From: Amphiura filiformis
Lineage: Eukaryota; Echinodermata; Ophiuroidea; Amphilepidida; Amphiuridae
Reading direction: 5' to 3'
Assembly (NCBI RefSeq): GCF_039555335.1
Contig: NC_092631.1
Coordinates: 12,647,701-12,711,700, forward strand
Length of the DNA: 64,000 bases
Below, piece by piece: positions 17,546 to 53,500 of this stretch. The notes under the pieces are model-generated. The model had not been told where the DNA came from, searched no databases, and worked only from the letters and a program-made list of their open reading frames with translations. Each line of letters opens with the position of its first letter. Within the stretch, counting starts at the first letter, position 1. A program made the position numbers and the translations under genes.

Positions 17546-17654
17546 TTCAAAGTCTGTATATTAATTTTATGCAGCTATTTAGGTATGACAGAAAAAAGTT
17601 TTCATAAACATGCATAAGTCGCTATTGCAAACGACACCACCGTAGTGTGTAGAG

Positions 17655-18190: not shown

Positions 18191-18288
18191 CAATCTAAAA
18201 GATAATTTGAAAATCAGATGTTTGCATTTGGTAATGGTACTTTTTTCAATTTTCATGACTTTTTCTAGAAATACTAATTATCTTAATA

Positions 18289-18710: not shown

Positions 18711-19480
18711 CCGATTCACTATTACAACTGCGCATACTCAGAACACCGATTTTTATGACCTGAAGAAATGGCCGGGGAGCAGGTTATTCAAAATTCACCG
18801 GCTTTCTGATAAAGTAAAATCAAGTTTCAGGAGAGCCCACTTATAGTCAATATAGAAAGGGCTAAAAAGATCCCTGGGAAAAGAAAGACATTTCGCAATA
18901 TTGAAAAAGAAAGTTAAAAAATAAACAACAAAGGAAAATCAAGAACGGCTGAGGGGCGAGGAAGTTAATAAACACAATTTAATAGATTTTTAGTACTGGG
19001 TCATTTCCTTTTTAAAAAAGGAAGATATAGATATTGTACGATGTCTGACGAATTTAGATTTGAGAGGGTTTTTTTTTCAGAAACTGATAAAATCATGAAA
19101 ATCTAGTTTTCACTATGAGAGAATTACGTTCTTTTTTAATTTTTAGAAGAAAAAAAGCTAGGCCCTCAATCATACAGCTCTTAGGTCGATTAATTCCCGG
19201 GTACCGTCGAATCCGGTATTTTTTTATTTAAAATCTCAGATTTTGCAGGGCATGTAATTTTTTTAATTGGGCGTTATAGCGATTGATGATTCCCGGGCTC
19301 TCGGTACGTAAGAGGACCCTGGATACTGCAAAAGCTTATATTAACTCGAGTTATTTCCTCAACGTGTTACAAATTCTGTATATGCGGTCCTGCAAACAAC
19401 ACATTACCAAGCAGCTCCAGCAAATTTAAACTTTTCGCATTCCTGTCGACGTTGAAGTGAGCGTAATATTAGCATGGTAA
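18711..19480. other. Intergenic sequence, nothing recognised
   Basis: There is no exon or structured repeat. The run contains several poly-T and poly-A tracts and an isolated ATTCCCGGG word repeated at about 19194 and 19290. Confidence 0.35.
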
Positions 19481-19484
19481 GTGC

Positions 19485-20250
19485 TTCAGGATATTTGATT
19501 TCTTTGTTCTTTTATTCTCTTAGGTGTTTGTTATACATGTGTTAGGGAAACTAGAAAAGGAACATTGTTGTAACAATATTCATTTTTCGTTTTTTAAATG
19601 AAACAAGAAATACAAATATTTAAATTAATCGCTTTTCAGTGACACTTTCAGTGTTCTCTTTGTTAATTGATTTATACGTATATTTAGAAAAAGAAAAAGA
19701 ACAGTGTGTGCTCTTTTCTTTTTCTTTGGTTGAGAATTGATCACGAAAAACAAATGTTTCAATTAATCGCATTTTTCGTGTTTCTCTTTGTTTGTTTTCT
19801 ATACTTGTATTAGAAAATTTGCCTATTTTTCCATGCTTCTCTCTTTTTTTACATTTGTGATAGAAAAACGAATACGTGATCATTGTTAGAGTTTTTCTTT
19901 TCTCTCTATTACATTTGTAGTAAAAACCAATTTGGTTTTCCATGTTTCTCTTTATTTATTTTTCATACTTCTGTTAGAAAAAGGAAAAACGAGCATTGTT
20001 GGCCTTTTTTCTTTTTTCTAACTTAGAAAATGGAGCAAGAAAAACAAAATTATAAATTAAAACCTTTTTCTCATTTTTCTTTTATCCGTAATTTTATACT
20101 TGTGTTCCAACCATGACAACGGAAAGCGATCATAATGAGCTTTTGTTTTGTTTTTCTTGGTTAGAATGAAAATAATAAATGATCATACCAATGGGCTTTA
20201 TTCGTTTTTCTTGGTTGTAAATGAAAAAACGAATAATATTTATGTACAAA
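19485..20250. repeat. Degenerate pyrimidine-rich TTTTTCTT repeat tract
   Basis: The tract is made of short, irregularly repeated words such as TTTTTCTTTTTC and TTAGAAAAAGGAAAAACG, with ACTTGTATTAGAAAA recurring. The minus-strand open frame at 19620-19943, rich in Lys, Arg and Glu, is a by-product. It lies directly upstream of the SRCR gene start. Confidence 0.5.
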
Positions 20251-20357
20251 TTTAATTCGTTTAGCATTTGAATTACGTTCTGGTACACCAAAACGCCCTT
20301 GAATAGTATCTGCGTTTGTGTGATACTTTTCTTTCTACTTCTATTATTAATTTATAG

Positions 20358-20502
20358 ATGGACGTTTTCAAAATGCGTAATGCTGTGTCGCTTTGCATTG
20401 CGTTTGCTTTGATCAGTGAGGTCAGCAGTTCGCCATGGTGGGGTGAAAACTCACACCCCGGCGGGAGGAACCGGGATGGGTGGAGAGGAAACAACGGTGA
20501 CG
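20358..20502 (+). CDS. SRCR gene exon 1: signal peptide and linker
   Basis: The exon begins at an ATG just after TTTATAG and ends GACG before GTAAGAA. It encodes MDVFKMRNAVSLCIAFALIS, then EVSSSPWWGENSHPGG and an Arg/Asn/Gly-rich end. Cleavage is likely around the SSS/PWW boundary. Because TATAG precedes the ATG, an upstream untranslated exon is possible. Confidence 0.8.
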
Positions 20503-23500
20503 GTAAGAATTATGGCTTTTTAAGTTTTTCTGGGTCATTTCACCAAAACTCAAATGTGATGCGATCAAGCAAAATCAGTCGGAACTCGGAAATATTGATT
20601 TTGAGATATAGCCAAACAAAGGAATTATTTCCTTTTGTTTTCTCTTGTTTTGCAAACTCTTTAGTTGCTCATATCTTTGGAGCTGGTTGTTCAATTTGAA
20701 TGTTTTTTTTCAAAATGCAGGTTTGTTAATGCTTTTCACTATCCTGTAAAAAATTGAAACTTTAATATTTCCGAATTCCGACTGATTTTGCTTGATCGCA
20801 TCACAAATGTTGACTAGCAAACTAGGGTTGAAAATTATTGATTTTCAGATTTAAATGATTGCTTTCTAAATAGACCGTATCGAATAAACTCAAGCGGAAC
20901 GGTATAACAATTGAAATGGCAGCCACGTAGGTTTTAAGTTTTAAGTGACAGAGGGACAGGTGTCTAGTCCAATTCCAAAACCATTCATACCTATCACGTT
21001 TTATTGTATTATCGTGCGAATTACCATGTGGTACCTTATGGTGGACAGAATTTTATTTAAATGAGGACGAGTGACGTAGTATTCGATAGGGTCTACGGCT
21101 TGTGCTTCGAAGTGCTTGTGCAAATGGAATATAATTTTTACTCTACATAATAGTATTAAGTCGAGTTTACACAGTCGGATATAACTGAGTTATTACCGGT
21201 AATAAGCGACTTATAACCGGTAATAGTGACTTATTACCGGTAGGGACTTAAGTCCGACCGTGTAAACACGACTTTAGATACATTGGAGACACATGTGAAT
21301 CAAATGCACAATTATTGATTTATAGGTTATTCTTAGTCAGTGGTAGTGGTCTAGTTCGTCGACACATAATCTGATTGGACATTCTTAGTCAGTGGGAGTG
21401 GTCTAGTTCGTAGACACATAGTCTGATTGCACAATCGCATTATTTCGGGTGCCGTCTATCAGGCCATATACGTCTAGCCCTCTTCTTTTGTTCCATTATC
21501 TATTGTATTTCTTTTGTTCAAAGTCTGGTCAACTGTCGATTATATCAAGTAATGTGGACAGGTCAAGATAATGTGGACAGGTCAAGATAATGTGGACAGG
21601 TCAAGATAATGTGGACAGGTCAAGATAATCTTGGTCAGGTCAAGATAATCTTGGTCAGGTCAATAAATTTTGAACAAGAGAAGTACATGTTCATATTTAG
21701 AAACACTGGCCACATTATTTGACTTTTTGGACATTTCAACAAACTTAAAATGCATCAAAGTTTAATATATTTTACACGATCAGCATAAATTATTATGCAA
21801 GTTTATGCATATTAGATTTAAATGAAGATGGTAAACAATACTTGTGTGTATTGAATGACACCAAGAACACCTATATTGAATAATGCAAATTAGTTTGTAT
21901 TATGTCTTATAGCCTGTATAATTAGGACGAGGATGTCAATCTACCTTTGTCCCCCCTCCCCCAACTAACGCAGATTCCGACAAAGTAGGTAACAAAACAA
22001 GAGCCATGAGGTCTTACAAATTAAGTTCAACCAAGGATATTTTGCACCGAAAATGCAGCACATTACAGGCCACAAGACTAGATGTAGAAAAACTACAACA
22101 ATCTGCGGCCTAACCCCAACCAAAAAAGGTCGAGGAAGGTACAGCCAGTCGTATTTGTATATCAATACCAAGGAAAGTGGTTTTGATCAGGAAGATGATA
22201 ATCTATTCTCATCTTCTCTGGTTCGATGCACCCAAGGTGATTGAATGGGTGCTTCCTATCTCTTTAGATATAGTTGTCTTAGCATAACGCCACCATGAGT
22301 TGTGTTTGGACTTGAGTTGGGTTAGTCTCGGGCCAGACTGTATGCGGCTATCACGAACATACCAGAAATGACGAGCGTTAGGGCAGACACACATTGGCTA
22401 TGTAGGAGACTAGTTTGGATGCGAACGGCATCATGACGTTCCACCGCACAATGTTGTAATACGTAAAACCGTATGACGTTAACAGCGAACGCCTCTTTGC
22501 AATCTCTCTAATATTCATATTTCAGCGGGCTTCCCAGCAAACACAAAACGTTTTCGACATCATTCGCAAAAGGTTATAAAAGGTTGTCAGAAAACGTTTA
22601 AATGTCGGGTTATATAAAGGGTATAAAAACGTTTTAATAACATTCCAAAAACATTCTTGAAAACTTGATACAAAACATTCTAAACAGAATGCTATTTTGG
22701 GGTTGAAAAAATATTTTGCGAAAAATGTTTGCCCAAAATATTTTCAATAACGTTTTAAAAACGTTTTCATGACCTTTTCATTCAAATGTTATTAAAAGGT
22801 TTTGAAAAAAACAGTTTAAGAATATTTCTGTGTTTGCTGGGTTCAAATATTTTAACATAATGTTATTTAAGTATTGACACAATATTTGGCAAAATGTTTG
22901 CAAAAATAGTTTACAATAACATTTTTTGAAAACATTTAAAAATATTGTTGTAGTGTGTTTTCATACAAAACGTTTTAAAACGTTATCATGACCTTTGTAT
23001 AACCCGACATTTTAATGTTAAAAACGTTTTAAAAAACGTTTTTACCTAAACCAAAAGCCAAAATATAACTTATTTAAAACGGTTTTTTAACGTTTTTGTG
23101 TTTGCTGGGTTGTTACGTTTACGGCCATGCATCAGTGTACGCATCACCAGATCTAGTTTTATTTAAAAAATCTTTATAATACCCTAAAAACAACTGATGC
23201 GCAGTCATTAACCTCTAATCAATAACCTCCGCGCTGGTGTGCGTATATCATCTAACAAGAAATTAGATTGGGATGCACATATGGTGCAATACGCGGTGGT
23301 TATGAAAGTAATGTATTGTACGTTTATCAATTGAATACCTGAGAATGGCCCAACTAAAACTGTTTTTGAGATATTAAGAAAAAACTTAATATTTTTGAAA
23401 AGTTTTATAGACAGAATGTTTTTATCTTCAGGGGACCTTCAATACATGAACATACAATATTACATACATTCGAAATTATATATGATGTTTTCATGGCAAC

Positions 23501-26500
23501 GGTACAGGTCTTAATACGAGCTGGAGTTGGGCCCTTCTTCCACTAATATACTGCAGGCCCATTCTCCGATAAAGTGTTCAAGTTTGGTCTCAGGAATGAC
23601 AAAATACCAACCACGAAGAATTCATGAAATACATTCAGAATCGTAAACTTAAATAGTTTGAGAACACAAAACAATACATGGGTGATTTTTCAACAATACT
23701 TCATTTTTGAGCAATATTACTTGTACGTGTTGGGGGTAACGTATCTGTGAAGCCCTTTCCCACCTTTGTCTTAATCGTGCAAGTGTAAAAACTTTCTGAC
23801 TTAATACCCATATTTGATCAGTCATCACCCAATGTACTAAAGTCTGGTATGGTATTTGGCTTCATTTATCACAGCGTTTTTTCCGAGGGGAGTAGAATTT
23901 AGGTAACATGAACGTAACGTCAGGACCTTTTGCCATTAATAGACCTGATTTTTTTAACTTTGTAACCATTGTGTTATGTTCCATATATATAATATAACTA
24001 TGGAGATTGCTTGATCCATCACATATGAGAACATTCATCTAGCCAATTATTTTCACAGATTGTTATCCATTAGAAATATGGTAACGTATCTGTGAACAAT
24101 ATTGGCGACATAGTCTCAAAGACCTGTTGGAAAAATTTAATAATCTGTGTTGTGATTTTTTATACTTTATATTGCTAATATTTTTCCAGCTTTTAGCAGT
24201 CCCTGTATCACTACCTATTTTGGCATATTTCATGTCAATTTGCAACGGTATTTCACTGTGCTTTGGTTTTAGTGATTTTTGGCTTTATCACTTTCATCCG
24301 CAGGCCTATATCTGTACATGCACTGAAATTAAATTTTATCATGCATGGACCACATGCTTTCTTACTTTCTCTGTTTTTCTACCTCCCCTTCTCTTCAGTA
24401 TGCATATTACACTTTAATATTTGAGACCTTCATTAACTTGTGTTTTATCCAGCAATTTTTGGTTTATTTTTCACTATACATGTATTGTGTAGGTCTATAA
24501 ACATTATTTGTTCTTTATTTAATATGCATTACTTTTCTCATAATATTGCAGTTTGAGTGACATTAGTCCACTTATCCTATCTATTCATTCTCTACAACCT
24601 CTATTGATTGCGACCCCACTTGACATTTACTTCCTGTCAATTAGGACAATACCCTATTGTCCTGTGGTGGTGCTTATTTACATATTGTTTCCCAGTCTAA
24701 CTTTGTAGTGAATTTGCTCACACAACTTATTTTGCTCTGAGTTTGCTGTCTTTTTTGCTACTCATTTCATGTACATATCCTTAAAACTTTTGAATCCATG
24801 CTTTATTCAAATGTTTTCAGCTTTGACAGCCAGTTGCCATGGCAATTGCCATGAGCATGAAAGTTAGTCTTAAAAACACAGTGGTCAATCTGTCATCCTA
24901 ACCAGCTGGACTTCACTTGGGTCACCATACTATAATGCCCTCTGGCAATTCCAGCCTTGAAACTCACTCCCCTGCCCAGCTGACCTCCAGAGCAACAGGA
25001 ATGTGTTGACATGCAAAAGGTCAAACATCAGCAGGTGTCGAGGTATATAAGATCAAATTATGAAATCCAATATCAGAAAATGAAACCAGTGAAACAAAAT
25101 TAATTACCCTCGCTTTTCTCTAATCGAGGGTAATTTTGCCAAAGTTCTTTAAGGACCCGTTGACGAAATGTTATTTCAATTTGAACTTGCCTTCAATTTT
25201 TGACTTGAATTTGTTTTTAAACTACAGCATGTAATTTTTGTTGTTTGCTTTATATTTTGTTGTCTGTCCCTGAAGAAGAGCAGTTTATCTGCTCGAAACG
25301 TCGGTTGTTTTTTGTCTGTTTAGTGTTTGACTGCTATGTACACAGTGATTTTCATCATTTCCAGTGTACTGTTTTCCTGACACTTTTGTGGGCTCTGGAA
25401 TTGGCAATTTTTGGCCATCGAACTTTGCCTGTTTTGTGCCTACTCTTGATGTTTGGTTAAGCGTGTCTGTTTATATGCACAGTGATTTTCATCAATTGTT
25501 CTAGTGCAGTTTTATATTACCATTGATCCTTGTTGTTTTTGCAGGTTCAGCACTTCTGTGGGCCTTGGAACTGGTAAATTTTGGCTATCAAACTTTGCCT
25601 ACTTCTTCTGCATACATTTGCTGTTTTTGTCCCCCTGCATACTGTCTAGTCTGCATTTTACTTGTTTCCCCACATCAAGTTGGTGTACCTTGCTTTTTTC
25701 TTTCCGAATGATATACAGTTAATATTAACCCTAACCGTGCCCGTGGCTATCGGAAGGGAAAGAAGAAACGAAAAAGGAGGCAAGATGAACAAAGAAGTCA
25801 CTTGGCCCCGGGATTCGAACCTCTTACCCCTCCCATGCCACCCACAAGATCACAGGCCTCGAGCCACGTGTGTTACGCTGACCCGGCCAGCGATTCTCTG
25901 GGTATAATTTGACTGAGGCTGATTGCGTCATCGCATCACTTGGAATGAATGCACGAGCAGTGAGCTTTAGTGAGCTCTGGTTGGGTTAGGGTTGATATAT
26001 TCCTTTACACACTTGGATGATACAGTTTCTACACAAAAATGTTTGATTGAAATCCCTCCTAATCGGCTAATTCTAAAAGGTATAGTCAGGCTTCCTTTGC
26101 CTGTACATTAACGTAACGTTATTTTCACTTTTAGAAACTTGTCAGAATAGTGCATCGGAATTGCGGACATGCATATGTGATGCTGGCTACTATGGAGCCT
26201 TGTGTGACCAGGTCCTGACTGAGAGTGGTGAGTATTGCAAGTATCGGCACTGAATACTACAGGAAATTTTGTTACACTTTGGAAACATGAACTCCGCTAA
26301 ACAAATACAATAATATAATAAATAACTAGCTAATATCGTATGCTGTAGTGATTATTACGAACATTTCATATACTAAATAATGAAAGTTAAACAGAATTCT
26401 TTAACAATTCAAAGCCAAAATTTGTCTAGAATGTTCAATGTTTAACCCCGCGTTAATCTCAAACCACCACATGTTTGATTCCTCTTTTTGTTTTTATTTT

Positions 26501-29500
26501 GTTTACTTCTCCGCATGATCAGAAAATGCACATTTGATTGTTAAAAGCAGTGGCGCCCATGGCGTATTGACGTATACATTAAAATGTAGAACACATTTAC
26601 CATTTCATGTTGCTGAACCGACACCCCTTATATTAAGCCTTGTGATCTCCTCTTGTGGGTCCGCTTTTTTTTCCTCAATATGTGAGTGTAAATACTGCTG
26701 TCATGCCCCCTCCCCCCCCCCCAACGACTCACGCTAAGATAGATGTAAAATAATTCACATTGATACTGAAAACATATGACTGTTCCTCTAGCAAAATGGA
26801 GGAACACGCCAATATAATTATGTAAGTGACAAAGCATTATACTAGAATTCTAGATTGTTTATGCAGACTTTTACTATTAGTCGGATAGAAATTGCTTGTC
26901 GGGTATGACTAACATTTCTTTTTTGCTTTAATATTGATATCTGAGGTGTATAGAATAGGAAAATAACGGAGCCCAATGGGCATCCTTGAGCATTCCGAGA
27001 AATCCGTGCTCAAAGTTTCCACAGTGGTCAAAATTCAAAATTGTTCCTATTTGGTAAAAACCTATTCCGAAATATTCCGCAGGTCACAAGGATTCAGAAA
27101 ATATATAGTTTGACCTACCTACGACTATTAAATCAGTCAGGAGTTATTGGCAAAAAGGTTAAAGGTCGGATTTGGAGTTCCATGGGGGTCAAACACAAAA
27201 AAGTTAAAGTAGGTAATGGCGAATCCAACGGACGAGGACACAAAACACATCAAGGATCAATAAATGATACAAGAGGATACCCAATTTTGCTCAAAATGGT
27301 CAAAGGCCTGTATGTTAGGCATCAACTTTAAACAAGAAAGTGTTAATCATACGCAACTTTACACTGAAGGAGAGAGAACAAAGGCATCTACTCGACTGTA
27401 TGAGGCCGGTCGGGTGCAGATCCATCGGAACACGCTTTTCAATACAGAATATATGCTAATCTCATCGTGTCATCATCCAAGCAGCAAGGTTCATTTCCCA
27501 TTGAAAAAGCGTTACCCGACGGATCTGCAGTCGACCATTCTGGTATAGTTTGTTATTTTCTACAAAAGATATTATTTTGTACCTCTTTCAGCCGTCCGCC
27601 TTGTCGGTAGCATGTATAGCAATTCAAATGAAGGCCGAGTGGAAGTATATCACAATGGGGAGTGGGGTACGGTGTGTGATGTTAATGGCGACAATTTCGC
27701 AATGGTAGTTTGCCGTCAGCTTGGATTTCAATCTGGTGGTGTTGCCAAGGCGGATGCTTACTTTGGACATGGAGATGACCACATATGGATACGTGATGTA
27801 CTCTGTTCAGGATCAGAAAACAGATTAGATGAATGCCAAGATGATGGATGGGGATCCGGAGACTCTGGATGTGAGCACTATGAAGATGTAGGGGTGATTT
27901 GCAACATAGGTAAGTCCAAATTACGACATGGTCATATGTTGATTATGGTTAATTGGCACTTGAGTCGTCTGGTTCTACGGCCGGGCCTACAGCGCGTCCG
28001 TCAATCCACGGGTATACTCATGCTCATCGGCGAACTTTAAAAGTACCCCCTTTTGCATCTCATTTCTCTAACTTTTCAAAGAAAAACACCGTGACCATTT
28101 TTATAGCCGATTTCGCGATTTTTTTTGCACGCATTGCCCATTTTTGGTTATAACGCGAATTATATACCTCATCTAAAGATTCTCGCCATCTGATTGGTTA
28201 AAAGAGCGGGCATAGTTTTGACTATGCCCGTAAAAGCGGGCATAGTTCTGCGTGTGCTTTGTTCCCAGCGTAAAATGATATTACGCACGCGTTAATGTTT
28301 TCGCGCGCTATAATTACGCGGACATCGTCTGTGCCGTTCGCATTGAAACTATTACTTTCTCTTTCCAAAAGCGATGCTTTTAACCAAACAGATGACAAGA
28401 ATCTTAAGATTTGGTATATAAAACAAATATTGACTGCTTTTTATCGAGGTATGGTTAAAATTATAGGCACGCGGTGATCTCAAAACCATGACTATGCCCC
28501 TCGGCTACGCCTCGGGACATAGTCATGGTTTTGAGATCACCGCGGGCCTATAATTTTAACCATGCCCCTCATAGCAGTCAATATTTGTATACTATAATTC
28601 AAAAATGCCCTATTATTGACAGCAACGCCCGGCAGCAACCTGTACGAGGCCTGAAAGTAAGTATTTGTGCATGTTTCACAAAATAAAAATATTGAATATG
28701 TACACTTAATTTACTTGGTTCATAGATGAAGAACTTTCTTTTTACAATTTTGAGAATATGTTTTGAAAAAGTACCCCTTTTTGTGTTTCGTGAATCGCGT
28801 AACTTCCAGTAAAAATCAGCCAATTTCACGAAATTTCCGACGCGCATGAGTTCCCGAAAGTCCAGGGATCGGGGGAACAAGAAATGAGGACAGAAATCCT
28901 CACTCTTTATTTATGTGATTTACATTATTTTGCGAAGAAAAGTGGAGCAAAAAATTCATCAGCACTTGTTTTTTAATTTATTATGTTTTATATTATTTTG
29001 TGAGGGGAAACGTGAGGATTTTCTTCATCATTGCAAATTAGTTTTTTCTCACATTTTATATTATTTTGTGAGGTTCATCACTGCGAATGTTTGATTTCTT
29101 GTGTCTGACATGTGACACTATTTGATCCTACTAGACCCAGTCAATTTCGAAAATTGAGTTATTATCAGCATCAATTTGCATAGTAACCAAGTGTGCTATT
29201 GCTGAAAACCTCACATCCTGCACACTTTTATGAGCCTTTACAATGCCAATTTTCCTATGTATACATATGCTTCCCTGTATCTCAATTTAACAATAACCAC
29301 CTTTGTTCTGATTGGATAAGATATAGTTTGAGCAGTTCATAATTGGCGGGTCTTATAACATCGTGGATCAATATCTTTATTTCGAGAATTGTCTTCTGAC
29401 ATTGCCAGAAGCATCACAAATTATATTCATTCCTATTTTTTTAACACGCACAATATAGACCATACCTTTTAACATATGTCTACTTTTCGGCGTAGTGTTA

Positions 29501-36869: not shown

Positions 36870-37465
36870 AGAGTCAACTGCATGAGAAAAGTACTAGGCA
36901 AAGCGTGTAATCATTAGAACATTATACTTTGATGAATTTCTGTGTATTCCTGGTAAAACAAACACCTCTATAATATCGCACCTATATATAATTCGTTGAT
37001 AGAATGTATATATATAAAGCCAGTTTTGTTTGGATTTCTTGTTGTGGTTTTGTATGTTGGATGATCTCAAGTGCAAAGTTACTTCTTATTTTTGACCATA
37101 AATTTTCTGTATTTAAAGTCACCCTCGGTATTGATACTGACTTCACTTTCATGGGGTTCATGACTGTTGACCGTATTCTGAAACAGACAAAATATAAGAA
37201 AAAAATATTAGGCCTATGTTAAACAAATTTATTCAAATATTTGCACAAAAAATTGTTGTCATTTTAATTACAAACACCAGATTCTCCGACCCCATACGCC
37301 CAGAGCACACGCCCTCACCCATATCGCCACCATGCACGAACTCCACCTCCCCACCCCACCCACACTATATACACCAACCAACTCCACCCACAGACACGTC
37401 CACCCCACACAGAGATAGCACAAACTAATCCAGTTATTAGTGGTTATGGTAGTTAAAACTTTTAC
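36870..37465. other. 3' flank of minus-strand integrin gene
   Basis: There is a C-rich, CCACC-repeat tract at about 37285-37410. On the minus strand an AATAAA lies at 37228-37233, about 235 nt after the integrin stop; it could serve as a polyadenylation signal if the last exon is terminal. No further integrin tail exon with NPxY was found here. Confidence 0.45.
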
Positions 37466-37672
37466 CTTAGTCCAAACTATGTTCCTCACTCCTTTCCTTT
37501 TCGAACCTTTCATATTCTCTCCGTTCTTGTATAATCATCCCTAATTTGACGAGGCCAATGATGAGTATCCCAAGCAACAAGATACCAGCTATAATCCCGA
37601 TTAGTACCGGCGTCCAAGGAACCTGACTTGTTACCTGTCCGCCATCTCTGTGCATGCTACTGTTTTTACAAA
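37466..37672 (-). CDS. Integrin beta exon: TM helix and stop-shortened tail (minus copy)
   Basis: After CTTTGTTTAG the exon encodes VCKNSSMHRDGGQVTSQVPW, the helix TPVLIGIIAGILLLGILIIG, then LVKLGMIIQERREYERFEKE and RSEEHSLD, with TAA at 37469-37467. One G remains before GGTAAAA. Alignment with typical integrin tails puts the stop at the codon just before the usual last junction (after the KWDT-like position), so the exon edge and donor are kept while the NPxY exon is cut off. Confidence 0.92.
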
Positions 37673-40600
37673 CTAAACAAAGCAATAATACATAGTTACA
37701 AAGTTGGATAAGAAGAAATATATACTTTTACTTTCTAACCGTGGTGGTCAAAAGATGATTCGGAGTTTTCTAATAATTTATTAAAGGAAGTCTCCGGCAA
37801 TCACAACATTATTCCTTATATGTAAGAAAATTAATTACCCAGCACGAATCACGTGGTTTTATTTAAAACAAACTCATAGTCACCATAAAAACGAATAAAA
37901 ACATCGTCTCTCAACACGCGATATTCAAAATTCCCAGGCGCCGAAATTGTCGAGCGCAATGACGTCCCAGTAATACAAATGAAGACTGACGACAAATAAC
38001 CATTACGTCATTGCACTTAGACAATTTCAGCGCGGGAATTTTGAATATCGGGTGTTGAGAGTCGACTGTGTTTATTCGTTTTTATGGTCATTATGAGTTT
38101 GTTTTAAATAAAACCATGCGATTCGTGCTTGATAATTATTCTTCTAACATATAAGGCATAATGTTATGATTGCCGGAGCACAAAAGGTGGAGTGTGTCGA
38201 ATATTTTTGATTGAGTAGCCAACCATTCCCTTGACATGTTAACACACGTCAGTATTTCCATTTTTAAGAGCATTTATGGAACAGCTTTGCCGGGATTAAC
38301 TTAAACCTCGCGGTTAGAGGAATAGGGACCACGATATATCAAACACTTCTCCAGACTCCAGCGTCTCTCAAGCTATATACGAAGCAATCTCATCTGGAAA
38401 CATGACAACCAAATTCAAAATTGATGGAGACATAGTTAATATATGCTGATGGAATAAACCTGATCAGCCCCTGATGATGGAAGTGGTCTGGAAAAGGCTA
38501 AAGCTACAGATGAACTGGGAAACCCATCTACTCAATGGGGAATGAAGATGAACCCATTCAAAGGGGAAAATTATGACCAAAAAATCTACGAGATATCACC
38601 CTTAACAGGATGACCATTGATAAAGTGAATGAATTCGACGATGTCTTAATTGGTAGAAATGAGCCATCAGTCGAAGAGGATATGAAGAACGTACAAGACT
38701 GGGCCTGGGCATTTGGTAGACTTAGGAATACCATATGACCACTTCAAGGTCAGAATATACACGTCTCTTGTTCTCCCAAATGTCACCTGTAGGCCTATAG
38801 CTGAATTGTGGGTAATACGTCAGTCGGACTGACAAAACCTGAGATGAATCCGGTCCATCCTACGAGTTAACCTTCTTGATAAAATGGGAAATGGTGAAAT
38901 TAGACATCGTCTTAACATCATAATCACACGTTTCCAGAAGGCAGCTGTAATGGCGTGGGCATACTGTCAGGTTGCCATCACAAAGACTACCATACCTATA
39001 CATTGAAGACTTAAGTGGGGGGAAATGATATGAAAAGATCCAAAAGGACACGGTCATGAATCTCCAACAGGCCGAATACCAGCAAGATATAAGGACAGAC
39101 CGAGGTTGAAGAGGAGAACCTGGTATGCAGAGGGAGGTCGTAAGCAGTTAAGACAAGTAGGTTAAGTATTAAAACATTCCATTTTTGCAACAAGGCTTTT
39201 ACCATTTTCATGGAGGAATTGCGCTGAGAGTACATATCTTAGGAAATCAGTGTTTCAAAAATGGACTGTGCAGCTGGACCCAAAAGTTGGAAAGTAAGGA
39301 GTTAATACTGATTTAACTTTTGCTAATTGAACGACTACAAATAATAAGATTTTTGAAGATTTTCAAAATGTGTTCTCATTCAGTATTATGAAACATGATT
39401 GTGAAATGAACACCAAACACGATTTATCTACCAATCGGATTTTAACGCCGCCGACTGGATGAGCCTGCTGCAAACATGATAAACATACCGGTGTCATAGG
39501 GACACATACCCCTCTCCCCAATTGAAGTAAAAAATCTTGAAGAATCCCATTGAAAATAGCTACTAAAAAAACTTTATCAGGTTCGATGCCCCATCTCCAA
39601 TCGAATGACTCACGCTAGGCTTCTAAACACATCACCGATTGAGTCGCTATCACATCTCCAGATAACACAGGCTCTAAAAACAAGCTGAAAAGGATTCTCA
39701 CATCTTATTCCTGCAGGGTGGAAAATGTCGATTTCTGTTATCTGACTGGCGTTCAAAAAACCAAAAACAATAAATTTATTCAGAAATAAGTGCTACTCGC
39801 CCTTTGTTCTCTGTACCAGTACGGTGTACGAGCCGTCCTCCTGCAATACATAGGTGTATAGAATAGTGCAGTCATCTTCGTCTCTGTACTCGCATCGTGT
39901 TATATCTGTACCATTTACTGTGTAAAACAGAATGGGAAAGCATATATATTTTTCTTGATCATTGTTAATTGTTAACGAAAAGACCATTATTAAAAAATGT
40001 AAGTGGAATGTTTGATGACTGTAAAAATTAAAGCTTTTCGGTCCTATATATTTGTATATTTTTCTTTGTTGCTGTCTTGTTGTTTCCCTTGATCATATTG
40101 CGCCTTAACTAAATATAGGCATTAGTATAGCGCCTTAGATCCAGATATCAAATCGCTTTCCATAAATTTTGCTGCCACTAGCATATATAAAACCATTTGG
40201 CAAATGTAACAGTTTCGCATTTTACACCTGGGTGGAGTGGGTCAAGCGAGATAATACACACAACTACTGCGGTCATGAGTCAAAAGTCATTAGAGACCTT
40301 GCGAAATGAAGTTAGAAACCACAAACTTTAACGTCTAAAGGATTTTAGAGGATTATGTATTCAAAACCACTCTGCCATTAAAGCCGCTTGAAGTTAAAGT
40401 TAACGCGAGAATCTATAGTGTGCCGTAAATTATGATGAAATACGTCATAATTTAGAACAATAGTTTGCCTATTTCCTCATAGACTACATAATTACCACTT
40501 ATGTATTATCCAGTTAATAGACCAATTATTGGAAATCTAATTTGGTTGGGTAAAAAACATGCTACATGTTGCTGAAAATTATTGATTGAATTAGATCAAA

Positions 40601-43600
40601 ATATTTTTTGTTCCAAACGTCACACTTGATATATACATTTGTGTGTGCTCATGGCGTACACCAAATCAGTTTGCGGAACCGAGTTTTTAGCTTGACTTCA
40701 ACGCCAAGGGGATTAAGTTCCCGTAAAATGGTTTGGTTTTACTTGAGCCAGCAGTATACGATACTTCTGGAAGAGTAAAGCAGGTGCATAACATTTATAT
40801 ATATATAACATGTCATAGGTTGTGCCTGGTAAGAGAGGGGGTAGGGAGGAGGAGAGGGAGGCCATTGGAAGTGGACAGGGAGGTGCTTTGCTGGTAGCCA
40901 AGGAGGGGGCTCCCCCGTGGGACATCTTGTCTTCCTTCTTGACCCTCCCCTTTTGGATGCTGGCCGCCGTGATATTTTACGCTTTTAGGCCTTTTTCTGC
41001 CATTTTAAGCCCATTTTTGTAAAAACGTTTCCCTTTGAGAATCGGCCCACGCCCTCCTAACAGAAAAACCCTGACAAAATCACTGGGGAGGGGGAAACAG
41101 GAGTGCGAGCGGGTAATTATAGGAGGGTCAAGTTTGAGAGAGCGAGTACAGATAGAGGGGAGAAGGAGGGGAAAATAAGTAGAAGGTAGGGAAGGGAAAC
41201 AGGAGTGGAAGGGGAGAGAGATTCAGAAGGAGGGGAAAGAAATAAAGAATATGTATTTCATTAGGCTTTGCGAAGTAAATTGGAATATGAAATTGACAAA
41301 GCTGACGAGCCTTTATTAAATAATATTATATATATATAGGCCTATAACTATCGTAAGAATATTAATTGAAACGTATAGCTAGTTTCAAAATAATAATGAT
41401 AAGGAGATTAACGCTGGGTCCCGACATAATCCATGTTGAGTGGTATCGCGAGTTCATTCATGTTTACTCAAACCAGAGACCGTGAAGAGATGGACGGTCG
41501 TCTGGATCGTAAGTCTATAGAAATTTCACATTATGCTGAGACCATGATCGTCTCGCTCGCACCTGTTGGATTAGCGTGTTTGAAAGAAGCGGCATTCAAT
41601 CGAAGTACACACGTTGTCTCTGACACAGTTACGACTGCAATGTAAACTCTGTTGTCGCAAAACAATTATAGTTACAAGAAATGAAACTGTAAAAAACCCT
41701 TATTTGCTGCAGTTTCAAGTTAATTAAATAAATACATATATTCACCGTTTCGATTTATCTAACACTACCTGTTACTCTGGCATTGAATGAGTTTCAATTT
41801 GCGTTATATAAGCCTTCGTCTCAACGTCACACTTACACGGATGCTCCGAGCACAAAATTCCATTGGTTTGCGACTGATAATGCAATTGAGTGGACGAGAA
41901 TTGTGTTATTGACCTTTTGTACGGTAAATCGATTCGATGGCAGGTTTAAAGACTATCTTGCCTTTGTGTTTGTGCGAGACGATCATAGCTTCAAAGGATA
42001 TGCCGCAGATGACCGTCCATGTCTTCACGGTCTATGCTCAAACGAAGCTCTTAAGGTAGAGTCTTCTGTCTTGAAGTGGGACTAAAAACCACTTGACTAA
42101 ACAAAAGAGAGACATTTGGATGTAGTCGGTTACAAGCTCTTACACATGCCCTTCTTTTGAACGCACATTGATACACATGTCCCGAGTTTAAGCGACAAGA
42201 CGCTGTTGTTACAGTAACCAACCATACGTTCGCGTTAGAGTAAATTTGAGCAAGAAATCCAATCGATATTTCTGAAGTTGCCGTTCCAGTTAAAGTAACT
42301 TCATTCCGCAAAGTCTCTTTTATCTTTAGGCCACCGTGCTTTTAAAAGAAATATTATGTATGGTAACTTTATGTCTGAAACCAGAAGATGAAGCACAATT
42401 ATATAAAATAAGCAGAACAGACATATCGTGTATTACTTCATACTAACCAGTTATGAATATATTGGCACATGTGATTGACACAACAATTGGGTGATAGAAA
42501 ATAGTATTTATTTAGTGATTCAGTCATGTTTCACCGTTGTTTATCACCTTTTAACAACTCGCGTCAGGCACGTTGCGTGGTTTACTTCGCTCAGGCAAAT
42601 TTAGAATGATTGTATAATACACATGATTATGCCATGAGGAATGTCAGTTGGTCATTGTCATTTAACATTACATGTTGAAACCAACAATAAAACTACAGAA
42701 TAAAACGGCAATGTTTAGCCGCTTCCTTCAAAATAATGAATTTAACATGTAAACGTATATATATACGCAAACAAATTTCTGATATGACATATTTTACGCG
42801 CTAACGCGTAATGCGTATGCTTGCTGTATACACTACTCTAAACGTGGAGATTCATAATCGATTAACAAAATAGCTCCTGTATAAAAGCATAGGAAGAGTT
42901 GTTGAATGTGTCCTTTTTAAAGAATTCTTATCTCAAACTTACGTTGAACAAGATTGTCCACACAATTTATTGGAGCCATGCACATGTCACACTGGTCCTT
43001 AGTTAGAGGCCCTTTGTCAAAAACCTTGCACAAAACACAGCCTTGAAACGATGAACATCGCCCTATACACATCTGTTTATGGTTAACATCAAAAAGTTAT
43101 GGTAAGCCATTCATCCCCATAGACGGCTTTTATTTTTAACAGCACTTTGTTTACATAAGACATTAACAAGAAATTTAAGCGAGATTTGAGCTTTTTGTCT
43201 CTAATGTTATTGTCTTTAAAAAAATAGGTCACTTACTTTTCGTGATGTATTTATGTAGATTTTTGATATCAACCCAACGACATGTAATAAATACAGACAA
43301 TTTCGGTTGAATTAATTATAAAGGATGGATACGCTGTTTACCATAAACCTCGGAAAGATCGCGGAGGAGGCATCAGTGTAATTCTTAGAAAGGGGTTTGA
43401 AGTCACTGAGAACCATAGTGATTCATTCTCTTCGTTTGAACTTATGGATTTGTCTGTGTCCTCACATGGGCAACAACCTTTCAGACTATTGTCTGTGTAC
43501 AGACCTCAACCATCGAAGCGTAACAAGCTGAAAACTTCAACATTTTTTAGCGAGTTTGCCACATTACTGGAGACAATTTCCATCGTTCAATGTCGCGTTT

Positions 43601-46600
43601 TATATGCTGGAGATTTTAATTTCCATATGGATGATGAGAGTGACCGTGATGCTCTACACATGCTTGATCTTCTTGAATCAGCGAGTCTTCGTCAGCATGT
43701 GACCGAGGCTACGCACATCAAAGGACACATTCTAGATCTCATCATTTCTCGAGATACGGAGAGTCTAGTAACACAAACATCAGTTCACCGTGGTCTTCCA
43801 TCTGACCATTATGCAGTCAAGTGTGAACTTGATGTTGCACGACCTAATGCAACGAAATGTTCTGTCCGTCACCGTCAACTAAAGGACATTCATCTTAGTG
43901 CTCTTCGTGATGATGTTGTACACTCACCACTCATATTGACACCTGCTGATGATCTTGACGAACTTTCTGAACAATATCACACCGTCTTGCGCACGATTCT
44001 TGATAAACATGCTCCCGAGAAAACGCATGAGATTACCTTAAGACCTCATGCACCTTGGTACGATGAGAGCCTTAGAAATGCCAAAAGGAAGAAGCGTTCT
44101 TGTGAAAGAAAGTGGAAAACATCTGGTTTGGAGATTCATAAGCAAATCTTCCAAGAAAGCTGCTGTGACTATAAGAAACTTCTTGATAGTGCTAAGACAA
44201 AATACCACAAGTCTGTCATATCAAACTGTGATCAGAAACAACTGTTCAGTGTCATCGACAAATTGTCTGTTGCACAAAATCCAACGGTGCTACCATCAAA
44301 TGAATCTTCTTTAGATCTTGCAAACGAATTTGTGAAGTTCTTTGATCAGAAGATTCAGAAGATAAGAACATCACTTGACAACGCTTCTGTCTCTGCTTCA
44401 TCTGTTAATGTGGCTGACAAGTGTGATTGCTCTCTCTTGCAATTCCAGGAAGTTTCCGAGGATTATGTCCGCGAAATTGTGATGCAGTCGTCCAAAGCAT
44501 CCTGCACCCTCGATCCGCTGCCAATGTCGCTATTCATGCTCTTGGTTGATGATCTTCTGCCTGCCATTACAAAGATCGTCAATAAATCTCTTTCAACTGG
44601 TTACTTCCCGGACACCTATAAGGTGGCTCGCGTCAAACCTCTTATCAAAAGCCTTCTCTCGATTGCGAGGACATGACAAACTTTCGTCCAATATCAAATC
44701 TCCGGTTTGAATCAAAGCTGGTCGAACGCGTCGCTGTGAGACAGCTTCAAGCTTACTTGAAAGATAATGGACTTCAAGGCAACAAACAATCTGCCTACCG
44801 GGAAGGCTGTAGCACAGAAACCGCACTTCTCCGTGTCTGCAATGATATTCTTCAGACTATAGATAAGGGTGATGAGGCAGTTCTGGTTCTGCTCGACTTC
44901 TCGGCCGCATTCGACACTATAGACCATCATGTGTTGATTGCGCGCCTCGAGGACCGATACGGAATCGGTGACAGAGCACTAGACTGGTTTGCATCGTATC
45001 TTAGCAATCGCAAGCAAGCCGTTGCCATTGATTCCGTCGTCTCTGATCCGCTCCCATTGGATTGTGGCGTACCCCAGGGGTCGGTTGCGGGACCCGTTAT
45101 TTTTACTTTGTATAGTGCACCGATTGAAGATGTTGCTTCCGCCAATGGAATCCAGTGTATGACATATGCAGATGATACCCAATTGCATATCTCTATGAAA
45201 CCTTCGGACAGAGATGTTTGTATAGCTAAACTTGAACAGTGTCTTGTTGATATAAAATCATGGACCATTCGTAACAAGCTCCAGTTAAACGATAGCAAAA
45301 CCGAAATCGTTCACTTTACGTCGCGGAACAAGAAGACAACAGCAATATCTTGTGTCAAAGTAGGCGATACAACCGTTAAACCTACTTCTTCAGCTCGCAA
45401 TCTTGGCGTTATCTTAGATAACAAACTCTGTATGACAGAACATGTGAATAACGTTTGTCGCAATGCCACTCATGCCATCAGAAGCATTGGGAGAATCAGA
45501 CATTATCTTGATCAAGTCACCACCGAAAAACTGGTTCACGCATATGTCACCTCGCGCTTGGATAATTGTAACTCGCTTCTCTACGGACTGCCTGACTGTG
45601 AGATCATGAAACTTCAAAGGATCCAGAATACTGCGGCAAGATTGGTAACGCGTACAAAGAAGTATGACAGCATCTCTGAAATTATGCGCGGACTCCACTG
45701 GCTTTCCATTCGCCAAAGGATCGCATTCAAGATCAACCTACTCACATTCAAGGCCCTTAATGGACTTGCTCCGCCGTACTTATCAGAACTCATCACGCCG
45801 TATGCTCCATCCCGTTCACTTCGTTCATCATCACAGAACCTTATCAAACCTCCTACTCGTCGTCCGCGCACCGCCTATGCACAGCGATCCTTCATGGAAG
45901 CCGCTCATAGAGAATGGAACAATTTACCTCAGCATGTCAGGCTTGCCTCATCAATTGACGTTTTAAAACAAAACTGAAAACCTTTCTTTTTAATCAATGA
46001 TTGCCTTTGTATATATGTATGGCATCTTTTATATCAATTTTTGTGTGTCATCGCTTCCGTGCAATTTGACAATATTTACTTAGTGTTTCACAGCTGGTTC
46101 TGTGTACGTGTCTAAATTTAATATAATGTTTTAATATGCATGCATCTCACTAGTTATTTGATTATTCCTCATTGCTTGTATGTAATATGTAATATGTATT
46201 GGGATGCTGAAGCGAGGGTTCCCGCCATTCCGTGATGCACTTTCTTTTTTCTGCGTTGGCGCTGCGGTCTGGCGAAATCAGTCCCTCCAGTATTTCTGTT
46301 TCTTTGAAATTATTTTTGTGTAGTTTTTAAGACTGTATTTTAAGTACCAGTAGTAATTTGTAGTTTTAAGATTGTATTTTTCATGGTTTGTAAAGCGCCT
46401 TGAGACCCTGTTGGGTTAAAGGCGCTTAATAAGTGCGGCTTATTATTATTATTATTATACGTACCGCGCAATCTTCGCATTTCTCTCCGGTAAATGGCGA
46501 GTCATCTTTACACCGACATTTCCCTTCACAGGTGCAACTGCCCCAGCCATTACAGATTAACTACAGCATAAATAAATTATGTAAAAATAAAAACAAGACA

Positions 46601-49600
46601 CCTTTACACATTGTATCTGTGATTATTGTTTTACAATTATGCTGTACAGTAGAGATTGTGCAAATCATCTCGTAAGATGCGAGACGTGAAAGTGACGTCA
46701 CCATACACTAAACCGCCGACAACGAAACGTCGCAGTTCTGTAGAAGCCTTTATACATGTAGGCAACAACAACTGCATGATGTATAACCAGGGTATAACCA
46801 GGGAAGTGGCACTAGGTACGTGTCACTTCCCTGGTATAACTAGTAGTGGCATACCGATCGCAAGGACAAAATTGACACATTTGCGATGTTTGTCTTTTGT
46901 TTGGCCTTTTCAGGCCACAATTATCATTATTTCGGCCCATTTCAACAATAAATTGCAATTTTTGCGCACTTCGCGCGCACATATCCCGTTAAAGTAATTT
47001 TAGCTGGAAAGTTCGAACATATTACGATTTTGCCCACCTTGTAAAAATTTCATGATAACTAGACACTACTTGCTTGCAAGCCGGACATGATATTTTTAGG
47101 AGCAGCTGCTTGTCCTGCCGGCTAGTTGCTTTTTGGCTGAATTTTACACACTGGTGTCATCAAAATAAATGTTTCTTAAATTGAATTTTGGAAAGAAGCT
47201 TCCTTGCAAATAAATTACAATCGTGATGATATTTATTATATCAGACTCATTTTTAAGATAAAAAGATCTCTGATGTGATATTGGCATTTACCCCATTCCT
47301 TGTTTCACAGTATTTTGTACTAGATATACATTCACATGCAGAACCATAATAGCCGGGCTTACAACGACATTGTTTTATCAGTGTCCTTGAGTCACAAAAG
47401 CACTCGCCTCTTTCTTTACCTGTTAAGCAGACACAAAATTAACAAACAATCAAGAAATAAGTAAACACAAACAAACAATAGCAAGAGATGACATGGCATG
47501 ATGAAGAGTAAAATCCAAGGTATTGTGTCTATTTCTCTGGCATACTGACATGACTGATGTTGATAAAAACAAAAGATGAAGATAAAGAAGGCAATGAACC
47601 AAGAAGTAATAGGATGACGATGACGACGACGACAAAAAACAATAAAGAAGACCTACCTCCACATGGCAACCCCTGAAACACATCATCACACATATTGTCA
47701 CATTCGCAATATCTTCCATATATTTGAGCATCTCCGGGTCTCTGGTATAAATCAAAAACAAATGAAAATGACTGAACTTGATTTCCAGTTAGCTTTTTCA
47801 AATTGTGTAGTCTTTGGAAATTTTTTGTTGCTGATCTATTGTGCGATAAGTGGTGATTAAAGGTACGGATTGGAAACGCTAAAAAGCTGTATCAATATAC
47901 ATCTTCATAGAATTTCTTTATCCAATTTTAACTTTTTGTCTACTATGCCTTAACACCACAGATCGGGTAAAAGCTACAAACAAATAGGGGTGTAAAGGGA
48001 CGAAAGTTGTTCAAAAGGGAAGCTGCCCCGAAAAAACTATATGTAGTTCGATTTTATTTCGAAATATTCAACATTTACATGTTTACCTTCCTTCAGCCCT
48101 GGAAAATAAACGATCAGACAATAGGAAGCAACGCATAAGTTGTTTAAATAGATTGAGAATGAGAAGTTTTGAAAATTCAATAATTCCCAATATGTCATTT
48201 CATACGTACCATTGGTTTGTCACATACACACTCACCACACATGCAATAACCTCTTCCTTGACATACTACAGGATTGTTCAAAGCTGGTCTGCAAAAACAT
48301 ATTGATATATACATGAAGAACATCTTTTCACCCCGAATATTATTTTAGCTTATCTACGGAAATTAAAAAAAAAAGATTTTTCCTCCGGGGCTCCGTACTT
48401 GTCCCATCTTGCGGTATGAGATAAATTAGTTTCAACATTCTACCCTTATAAGCCCATTGTCAGTTAATTGTATTGTATTCAAAGCGGCCTGACACCTGTA
48501 CATGTCACACTAAAAATCGGTTTAATCAAGTTCAATAATTCATGGTCATATTCATAATTTACCAGATTTGTTCCATACCACACCCTATGAATTTGACCCG
48601 TTATATGCTTATTTTAAAATCATTTGTTGGAGTAGTGAGACAAATTATTTGGTATAGAAAGTTTCTGTGTATTATCACATAGCTAGTCAGCATACCGAAT
48701 ACAGTTTGATAAATCTTCCGGATCAGTCCTGGAGTCGCCATCGCATTCACACTGGGAACCATAACGACCCTCGTCGCACTCACATTGTCCACACGTGAGT
48801 GTACCATTACCGTTTGTGCAATAAGAAGGATCTCTCACCTACAAAGCAAATAGTAAGAACATACGATCAAAAAAGGGGATGAAATGTATTCGGAATTCTG
48901 TATACATATGGTTGGAAAATGTTCAAAGATTGCACATAATTTTTCATCAACAAATACATTTATGAGAAAGGGAAAATATTTAAGTATGATGTTGAGGACG
49001 AAGGATTATCATAATTAGTCAGTTTGGCGGGAATTTTTTCTTACAACGGGTATTCAAAATACAAATTAAGGGTGTCATATAAAAGTGTTTTCTTCCGGAC
49101 AAAATTATTAGGAGTGATTTCTGTAGACTGTGTCTTGTCTAATTTAGAGAGTACCATAATGTACTGCCCCCTTGCTCAATCATATGCACTTTGTCTACTT
49201 GAGATTATTTCTAATTTCTTACCCCATTACTCTCACAAGTACACGAGCATATGACGTCAGCAGTTACTGTTAAACTTTCATCAATTCCAAAAGGTCTCAT
49301 TGTGAACCTGTACATCAATAAACCACCAAAATGACAGTATTTATACACTCAAATCAAGTTTTAAGGTTTAATAGATATCGCCATGACTTCTCCGGTTGGC
49401 AAGATGACAAGCTCGCTATTTCCCGCCACAAATTTCCTCCAAAGAGAGACAGTCGCCTTAAAGCCATATTGTAACATTTGCTGATGGAGGACTCCCTCAA
49501 TATTTTTTTTAATTCTGTTTTTTACACGATTTAATGTACTTCAGTAAACTACGATACCCTGCATAAACCAAGACTGCTGCTGAAGTTTTGTCAAATCTGA

Positions 49601-50527
49601 GCCTATGAATAATTAGTCGAACGCGTATGCGATGTTCATAACACAGTACGTACCCCGGTATACGTACATGACGTGCGGGACGGTCTTACCAGAGAATATG
49701 TAATGTAAATTCCAATTTTCTTTGACTCACCTCAGTTGTTCGGCTCAAAACTAAAAGGGGACATATCTGACAGTAAAAGCTAACATTTTTATGGAAAGAA
49801 ATACTAATCTATTTTATGGAAATGTTACAATATGGCTTTAAGCACTTCATATTGGCAATGCGGTCTTATCTATAAGGGATCTAAAGAGATTTTTTGAAAA
49901 TCCAAGGACTTTTCCGAGTACCGTACATGTTAGACTATGCCATAGTCGATTTTTGATAAATAAAAATATGTTATCAATCATGATGAACGCATTCAGTTGA
50001 ACTCGAAATTATATTGATGTTTATCACATCTAAATACTAGTTTCGCAAAAGCCCGAGTAAAATTCTACTTGGTAAGCTAACAAACAGAGGGAATACGGTG
50101 ATTGAAAAGATCAGATGTGAAAATCTATCAATTGCGCACAAATACAAATCAGAGTTTTATGCTCAAATGTAATAGCCAGAGTATATGCACAATGGGCAAA
50201 TGGACTACGGAGAAGTCTACATACATGTATGGTCAATTTCATTGAGTCTTCCATAGAGGTGATCGTTATGTACAAAATCACAAATACATACGTTTGTTTT
50301 TCGCCATTTGGAGAGCAATCGGTTGCCAACATCTCTACATCAAACTCGGCAACTCCTGTTTCTTTACATCTGGATGGAGTTGAATCCTCGTTCTGATCGG
50401 CACAGACGGATGTGTAATAGATTGCGATATTGTCTGGCGCAGTGTCCACAATGTTGACATTGGACGCAATTTGCTGTTGTATTGTGAAAAGGCAATTGGG
50501 AAAGGGTTCTTTCTTTCTTTCTTTCCT

Positions 50528-50596
<69 letters not shown>

Positions 50597-53500
50597 TTTC
50601 CTTTCCTTTCTTTCTTTCTTTCTTTCTTACTTTATTTCTTTCGTTCTTTCTTTCTTTCTTTCTTTTTCTTTTTTTCTTCTTTTTTTTTAAAGAAGACGTG
50701 GCACTCACATTATCCAATGATATACAGTTATATTTAAACATAATTTATTTTGTAAAAAGGGGGAAGAGGAGAAACGAGGAGAGAAAAGAAATTGAATGGA
50801 GAGGAAAAGCGAGGAAAGCCAACACATCACAGAATTTATAGACATTTACATTTCACATAATCTATTTCACTTACATTGTATAATATATGCGTCAATAGAT
50901 CTATTACATTGGCAGAATCGACAGACAGACGGCCCACTCGACCACCTTTGAATAACTGACTTAAATTCTGAAAGAAAGATGTAAACATAATTTGATAGGG
51001 TTTACTATTTAAATCGTGGCTTATAGCAAATAACATTTTGTTTAAGTTCATGATTTCATTTCGTGCAATACACCCTGAACGGTCTGAACGCACTTTACAA
51101 CAATTAGTATTATTTCGTCGCCATTGATATTAATAATCAGAATTTACAGATTCACTACCGTAATCCTACAACCTCTGCACTTTGAACACTAATGCCGGAA
51201 GCGCATTGCCAATTACAGTTATACGGCAAAGAAGATTTTCACTGCACCCAAGAATACACCATGTGTATATGACACTTATTTATTTAGAACTTGACCGTTT
51301 TCAGCCAGAAAATTGATGCAAAGAAGATATATTTTACAGCTTATACATATTTTTGCTTAAAAAAACATTCCTGAGATAGTCACTTTTATCTGTTTTATCA
51401 AACGATTTTAGAGGTGCAACTCGTACAATCATGGATTCAGTTTGGAGATAGAATATCCACCCCAAACCGGTGCATTTTCCACTTAATGGGACAAGAAATT
51501 TGTTATAAAGCTACAGTTTATGAGGTTATTGGGTTATTATTTTATAATAATCTTCCTGTCCATTGGCCTAACAAAAATACCATTCGTCTGTTGAAAACGT
51601 GGCATATGAACATGTAGTGCTAGTTGTTGGATCTTGATCGATCCGAGAACTAAAGCTATGCAATAAGGTACAACATTGCCAACACCGCGGTTAAGGCGCC
51701 CAAATTGTGATATTTCAGAGTGTAACATAATCGTTTACCACGACTGCACCAAAATATATGACTATTTAACTTAAGATCCCTGTTTTGTTTGTAAGTGTGT
51801 TTTCTTTACGAGTTGATGGCGCAACAAACATGGGTAAATACGCCTATTCTCGGTTACTTAAGAAACAACCCGCTCTATTTCTTGTGTAAATGATTATATA
51901 AGTTAGCTATATGGGAACGTGCATTCCACACAACACCCCGCACAGTGTCTTCCACCCTATATCTTCATGGCAGGAATCGCCATGGTAGGTTAAATCCACA
52001 GCCACGATTAGCCATTTGGTTCAAACCTTTAAAGCTCTTTTAAACTAATAATTAGTCGAGGGACATAACTAAGGCTACTCACAATAGCCGGGTAATCGAT
52101 CTTGGTTGTGCGTGATTAAGCTTGTATACCCCATTGAGGTCAATGGTCATCGACTTTTATACTGCCTACAGTGAGTGCAACTGTACTACACGCTGCACGC
52201 TGTAGTCCATAACAGGACCAACGCAATATAAAATGGTCAAATTTTGAGTTCAAAGCGCACGGCCAATTTTCAAAGCGCATTCTAGCGACTATCATATCTG
52301 TTCAACACGTATTTCCAAGTTTATGAGACCAAATCTGGTAAATTGAGAAAAAATCATGACGGGAGATATTCATCATTTTCTAACCCGGTATCAGAAGATT
52401 TTCGTCTGATATCAAAATCGTGCATAGCAATTCACGTGTATCGATCCCGTGTATTCATTTTAGTGTCCCTTCTGCACCAAATAATTATTAGCCAGGCGGT
52501 GTCGGTGTGCCCCGTTTAACATACCCTGCATGACATCTTCCATTGAACTTGTATTGGAAGTACAAGGTCAAAAGGTCAAAGTCGACGACAACGCCGCCTA
52601 TTCTCGGTCACTAAACACATATTCTCGGTCACAGTATAGTTTTTCTATACCTATTCTCGGTCATTCTCTTTTGGAAGCCTGGTTGATCGGTATGATGCGG
52701 TTTTGATAACTTAAACCCATAATAAAATACGTGTGCAGTATTATCAAAATTTTTCGTACCATCCGATCGGGGTCCGAGGTGGTCCTATTTTGTGGGAGCG
52801 CACAGCGGAATACGGTGGCACGCCCGACTAGTCCAGGAGCAAGATCACACAGGGATAAGGAGTTCGTTCACCCCCACTACATACAAGGTTTGACACCATA
52901 GTACGGTGTCTGATCTCCGCCAAACTCCCCCTTTTATAATTCATCTCCCCAAATTTTCAGTTTTCCCCCTTTTTGCGAAATGCTTTCCCCCTTTTTCAAA
53001 TATTTTCCCCTTTTAACTTTCCCCTTTTCAAATAGTTCCCCCTTTTCGACTTTCTCCTTTTCAAATAGTTCCCCTTTTCGACTTTCCCCATTTTCAAATA
53101 GTTCCCCCTTTTCGAATTTCCCCCTTTTCAAATAGTTCCCCCTTTTCGACTTTCCCCATTTTCAAATAGTTCCCCCTTTTCGCATTTCCCCCTTTCATAT
53201 AGTTTCCCCCTTTTCGAATTTCCCCCCTTTTCATATAGTTTCCCCTTTTCGAATTTCCCCTTTTCATGTTTCCCCTTTTCGAATTTCCCCCTTTTCATAT
53301 AGTTTCCCCCTTTCGAATTTCCCCTTTTCATATAGTTTCCCCTTTTCGAATTTCCCCTTTTCATAGAACCCCTTTTCGAATTTCCCCTTTTCATATAGTA
53401 TCCCTTTTTCGAATTTCCCCCTTTTCACATAGTTTCCCCCTTTTCGAATTTCCCCCTTTTCATAGAACCCCTTTTCGAATTTCCCCTTTTCATATAGTAC

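Follow-up and report, generated by a model that had tools for sequence, protein, structure and literature searches.

Binding of NPxY motifs by talin and kindlin is regarded as a requirement of integrin signalling, and the membrane-proximal helix of known integrins pairs with the alpha chain and touches talin. Two cnidarian beta subunits are described as keeping two NPxY/F motifs (PMC2397394). In zebrafish, the truncated beta1 paralogues beta1tr-1 to -3 were found as cDNA and are thought to be recent tandem duplicates (PMC1538996). In the oyster, Cg-beta3 is described as having a transmembrane domain, and nine further beta candidates as having none (PMC7390872). The human tail variant beta1B is reported not to enter focal adhesions and to be dominant negative (PMC3412830). 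Tail-poor beta subunits are already known, and the gene described here is a variant of that sort, membrane-anchored and stopped at the last splice junction.

The window, a stretch of 64,000 nucleotides from the brittle star Amphiura filiformis, holds two copies of an integrin beta gene, copy A on the minus strand and copy B on the plus strand. We favour, with a probability of about 0.57, the reading that copy A is an apparently functional integrin beta gene and that its protein would end 26 residues inside the membrane, at a stop codon that predates the duplication and came about by loss of the G of a splice donor.

Copy A comprises 12 integrin beta exons, from 59334 to 37466, which run from the C-terminal part of the beta-I domain to the stop. 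These are two C-terminal parts of beta-I (VWA), at 59239-59334 (Pfam PF00362; AG/GT ends, phase 0) and 50875-50967 (phase 0; found by tblastn with a human beta3 query, and matched by Pfam together with the first part); the hybrid domain at 50292-50473, in phase with both neighbours and matching the hybrid region of integrin beta-1/beta-3; the end of the hybrid region at 49223-49307; I-EGF1 at 48696-48838 (PF18372); the first part of I-EGF2 at 48210-48288 (PF23105); I-EGF2/3 at 47657-47741; I-EGF3 at 47292-47419; I-EGF4 at 46465-46560; the beta-tail domain in two parts at 42943-43072 and 39801-39917 (both PF07965); and the transmembrane exon. Joined by their splice sites, the exons are all in phase as one frame of 1441 bases, with 479 codons, a single TAA at the end and a trailing G. 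Eleven of the 12 donors are GT. The remaining one, after 39801, is the GC donor GCGAGT (39795-39800, minus), accepted because the copy A frame needs it; its counterpart in copy B is GTCAGT. A version of copy A without a hybrid exon, which would argue for a dead gene, was ruled out by the exon at 50473-50292.

The VWA, I-EGF1, integrin EGF and beta-tail families of Pfam all scored above their cut-offs on copy A, with PF18372, PF23105 and PF07965 marking the I-EGF repeats and the beta-tail domain. For beta-I, the C-terminal part alone lies inside the window (E 3.1e-13), and the cytoplasmic domain family was matched at positions 1-21 of 44 only, below its cut-off. The best PDB match of a 355-aa part, from the end of the hybrid domain onward, was integrin beta-1 (E 1e-58), in an alignment that extends through FEKE. 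The transmembrane helix was called from this alignment and is followed by a motif of the HDRRE..FEKE type, IIQERREYERFEKE being aligned to IIHDRREFAKFEKE with the D of HDR replaced by E. Searches with the 51-aa transmembrane and stub peptide against viral contigs and with a 271-aa part against prokaryote contigs returned no relatives, as expected for an animal gene. The openness of copy A refers to the 3' half within the window, most of beta-I, PSI and the start lying outside; when the minus strand from 64000 to 58000 was scanned with Pfam in three frames, no copy A exon was found upstream of that at 59334. LINE-type retrotransposon frames (endonuclease, reverse transcriptase) occur within the introns of the two copies, at 43291-45974 (+) and 11848-14695 (+).

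The transmembrane exon of copy A (37466-37672, minus; 207 nt) encodes the helix and a 26-residue stub (KLGMIIQERREYERFEKERSEEHSLD), followed by TAA at 37469-37467, one G and the donor GTAAAA. That of copy B (15001-15198, plus; 198 nt) ends in RSEEHTLD, TAA, G and the donor GTAAAG. Written as codons, the exon ends are GAA CAT AGT TTG GAC TAA G/GTAAAA in copy A and GAA CAT ACT TTG GAT TAA G/GTAAAG in copy B; the two exons share 174 of 198 aligned bases, and the frame from the helix through the stub is open in both. Sequence and positions alike agree with the original prediction that both exons end RSEEH(S/T)LD, TAA and G before a donor-like sequence; in both, FEKE stands directly before RSEEH and the donor is a GT. 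A sequencing error behind the stop is unlikely, as the same error would have had to occur at two diverged loci. Two further points of the prediction have to be revised. Splice phase was said to have been kept; TAA followed by one base places the donor in phase 1, which is not the ordinary phase. The TAA was also thought simply to take the place of the codon before the ordinary junction; instead, the exon seems to be longer by four bases, TAAG.

In copy B, counterparts were found for 4 of the 12 copy A exons, namely I-EGF4 (5629-5724, plus), the two parts of the beta-tail domain (7932-8047 and 11271-11387, both plus) and the transmembrane exon. A 14-nt deletion shifts the frame in the first beta-tail exon, and copy B is dead. 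Within the window, then, one copy is decayed and the other, with its 479 open codons, is not, as had been claimed. A beta-I (VWA) exon with the MIDAS motif DLSAS (781-912, plus; PF00362) was seen, within the window, in copy B only. The four coding exons are collinear between the copies at 87-88% identity, which bears out the view that the stop is common by descent and older than the duplication. Another VWA (beta-I) exon stands in reverse orientation within the copy B region (3869-3967, minus), either a third integrin fragment or the product of an inversion at this place. Copies of a dispersed repeat, about 500-700 bases long and some 90-95% identical to one another, occur at 5733-6425, 22532-23109 and 63027-63596, one of them beginning directly after the donor of the copy B EGF4 exon.

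The position of the stop relative to the ordinary tail junction points to a possible origin. In human beta genes this junction seems to be in phase 0, to judge from the retained-intron tails of beta1B and beta3B, and the intron retained in beta1B lies at the same border. In beta1A, beta1D and beta3, the T that ends KWDT lies eight residues beyond the E of FxxE, and beta1A and beta1D diverge directly after KWDT, in keeping with a splice junction at the end of that codon. RSEEHSLD in copy A is exactly eight residues past FxxE and is followed by TAAG and then by GTAAAA. The TAAG looks like an old GTAAG donor minus its G, a single reconstructed step. On the simplest reading, an ancestral phase-0 donor, SLD/GTAAGG, would have lost its first G before the duplication; splicing would have slid four bases to the next GT, and the leftover TAAG would have joined the exon, supplying the in-frame stop TAA and changing the phase to 1. 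The former last exon would then have become 3' UTR and decayed. By base composition, the probability of TRAG at this place is about 0.009, a figure for a pattern that was picked after being seen. Were the stop due not to captured intron but to the insertion of one base into the former last codon, this too would account for the phase-1 donor and would leave the donor site unchanged. Such an insertion would also make the old exon nine codons long past FxxE, against eight in beta1 and beta3, and we consider it the rather unlikely alternative to the loss of the donor G.

A history as protein is indicated by the pattern of differences between the copies. Over the four shared exons, dN/dS is 0.254 (dS 0.344, dN 0.087), with a bootstrap range of 0.15-0.43, and in none of 2000 resamples did it reach 1; this was computed on 171 codon pairs, excluding codons with gaps and the TAA pair that the copies share, with copy B read in the frame of copy A past its deletion. 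Exon by exon, the ratio ranges from 0.08 (EGF4) to 0.38 (transmembrane). Differences fall on 15 of 173 first, 17 of 173 second and 31 of 174 third codon positions. The ratio implies selection on the protein in one lineage or both since the duplication, which already carried the stop. Because the last 37 exon bases, TAAG included, contain 2 mismatches against 17 of 40 at intron positions +7 to +46 (Fisher p 1.5e-4), the edge of conservation coincides with the donor after the stop. On the other side of the exon, the 88 aligned intron bases before it are 86% identical, as well conserved as the exon itself, so that the sparing extends beyond coding sequence; four other intron flanks that were measured show 61-80% identity.

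Beyond the donor, a putative last exon, apparently non-coding, begins in copy A at the acceptor TTTCAG/AATACGG (37055-37177, minus). A homologous acceptor opens its decayed counterpart in copy B (15616-15713, plus); the far ends of both are the ends of the alignment between the copies. The intron after the transmembrane exon thus measures 288 bases in copy A (next exon from 37177) and 417 in copy B (from 15616). Local alignment at this acceptor scores 59, the maximum in 300 shuffles being 53. In the putative last exon the copies show 28 mismatches over 96 bases and 8 gap events (71% identity), compared with 65 mismatches over 527 bases and 2 gap events in the four coding exons (p 7.5e-5 and 1.4e-5), suggesting that the sequence behind the acceptor evolves like non-coding DNA, as a 3' UTR would. 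Its codon-usage scores in the three frames are -0.3, -15.3 and 0.85 bits, and five coding exons of copy A reach 2.9-21.1 bits; these exons also trained the score, which is weak, the null 95% point for 33-codon intron segments (7.3 bits) lying above the weakest true exon (2.9 bits). When its three frames were aligned with the beta1A, beta1D and beta3 tails, no NPxY remnant stood clearly above shuffles, the best of the nine alignments having a score reached by 161 of 1000 shuffles. The putative last exon may therefore not be the former tail exon. An NPMK...NTEN string was considered as a vestigial tail and dropped, because the alignments are no better than shuffles and the score of its frame is negative.

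These comparisons also bear on the proposal that both copies are pseudogenes, copy A being open in its 3' half and nevertheless dead through a broken 5' half and a weak GC donor, with the shared stop as an early disabling mutation. Copy B is clearly dead, the 5' exons of copy A lie outside the window, and copy A itself has one GC donor and, by eye, an extra Cys in its beta-tail that is absent from copy B, all of which would suit such a history. It is hard to reconcile, however, with 479 stop-free codons over 12 exons that keep 11 GT donors and one GC, with a dN/dS of 0.25, or with the much closer agreement of the four shared exons (87-88%) than of the putative last exon, and we regard it as unlikely.

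Copy A as a tail-less gene also requires that no ordinary tail be reached by splicing. In line with what had been predicted, the encoded tail contains neither the NPxY nor the second NxxY/NPxY of signalling beta integrins: the frame stops before the tail. No NPxY tail exon turned up in the stretches scanned. A two-motif scan (AG, NPx[YF] within 8 residues, plus a second Nxx[YF]) gave no hit in 22 kb of the minus strand after copy A (37470-15300) or in 21 kb of the plus strand after copy B (15199-36000). A single NPx[YF] after any AG was matched twice after copy A and twice after copy B, and twice on each of the opposite strands; both matches after copy A are one 10-residue fragment that ends in a stop right after NPFYY. 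Pfam matched no family in 9.5 kb after either copy (minus 37500-28000; plus 15180-24700). An alternative transcript could still leave the exon at an internal donor, for instance GGA/GTGAGG after 37490, a fair donor that is identical in copy B, and join a distant or motif-less tail exon. The suggestion that the stop might be skipped in this way found no support, in that NPxY results from none of the joins between the two acceptors tried and the four GT/GC sites within the final 85 bases of the exon; nor does it result from any of the six sites obtained by adding the main donor and one just beyond. Joined at 37177, GGA/GTGAGG gives KYGQQS and then a stop. With the motif scan and Pfam both negative over 22 and 9.5 kb after copy A, an ordinary tail made by alternative splicing appears very improbable.

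Equally doubtful is a transcript that stays unspliced past the transmembrane exon and ends at the AATAAA that had been pointed out near 37228, which is present at 37233-37228 (minus) within the intron, about 230 bases past the stop, and which has no counterpart in copy B, while both copies retain the donor and the acceptor; the force of this objection is reduced by the AATAAA beyond the putative last exon in copy A (36865-36860, minus), equally absent from copy B, where about 1 kb after the stop exon contains no AATAAA at all. Whether spliced or unspliced at its 3' end, the transcript would encode the same tail-less protein.

A stop near the last junction spares an mRNA from nonsense-mediated decay under the usual distance rule; with the stop one base before that junction, decay is not expected for copy A. 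The predicted protein would retain the leg of the ectodomain, the transmembrane helix and, next to the membrane, the ERRE..FEKE helix, with no NPxY. Such a subunit might pair with an alpha chain and bind ligand and, having no NPxY for the usual binding of talin and kindlin, would be neither activated nor tied to actin by that route. By analogy, it would most likely be a competing (dominant-negative-like) or ligand-binding receptor, much as human beta1B, the closest parallel to have been tested, and a decoy or ligand-binding-only function is plausible on the same grounds. More tentatively, it is possible that copy A represents a tail-less, membrane-anchored beta lineage in which a stop made from a lost donor G was kept by selection through the duplication, as a fixed counterpart of beta1B and perhaps as a competing or ligand-binding-only receptor.

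Between the integrin copies, an open frame at 27549-28037 (+) encodes a complete scavenger receptor cysteine-rich (SRCR) domain (Pfam E 2.3e-25), which possibly marks an immune-type gene neighbourhood. The window further contains two minisatellite arrays whose CCCCCTTTT-type units are similar and run in opposite orientation (52961-53549 and 54811-55017) and a tRNA-Val (cac) gene or tRNA-derived element at 62876-62948 (+).

If the favoured reading is true, a beta subunit kept by evolution without NPxY would be a natural test of what ectodomain, transmembrane segment and membrane-proximal helix do alone, and the gene would illustrate how the loss of a splice donor can create a stop codon. Among the matches listed, in which few subscription journals are covered, there was no report of a beta integrin with its stop at the last splice junction. 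The NPxY-less and truncated beta subunits that have been reported make such a gene less surprising. Like the zebrafish beta1tr paralogues, the two copies are separate genes that share one stop at the same position and have lost the cytoplasmic tail; in the zebrafish genes, as described, the stop falls just after EGF-4, with loss of the beta-tail domain and the anchor, whereas here the transmembrane segment and a 26-residue stub are kept (PMC1538996). The oyster Crassostrea gigas Cg-beta3 is likewise an invertebrate subunit with a transmembrane domain and no C-terminal NPXY/F motif; the part of its description that bears on the tail names neither a stop at the last junction nor a mechanism, so that the likeness is one of description only (PMC7390872). 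In C. elegans pat-3(sp), by the account given, a splice change at the tail intron removes the NPxY motifs, although there, unlike here, the acceptor mutation was engineered, the intron is translated and the normal form is also made (PMC3412830). The same account describes human beta1B as a tail variant arising from kept intron sequence, which the captured TAAG would resemble; beta1B, however, is an alternative isoform beside the normal form, whereas both copies in the brittle star have the stop fixed within the exon (PMC3412830).
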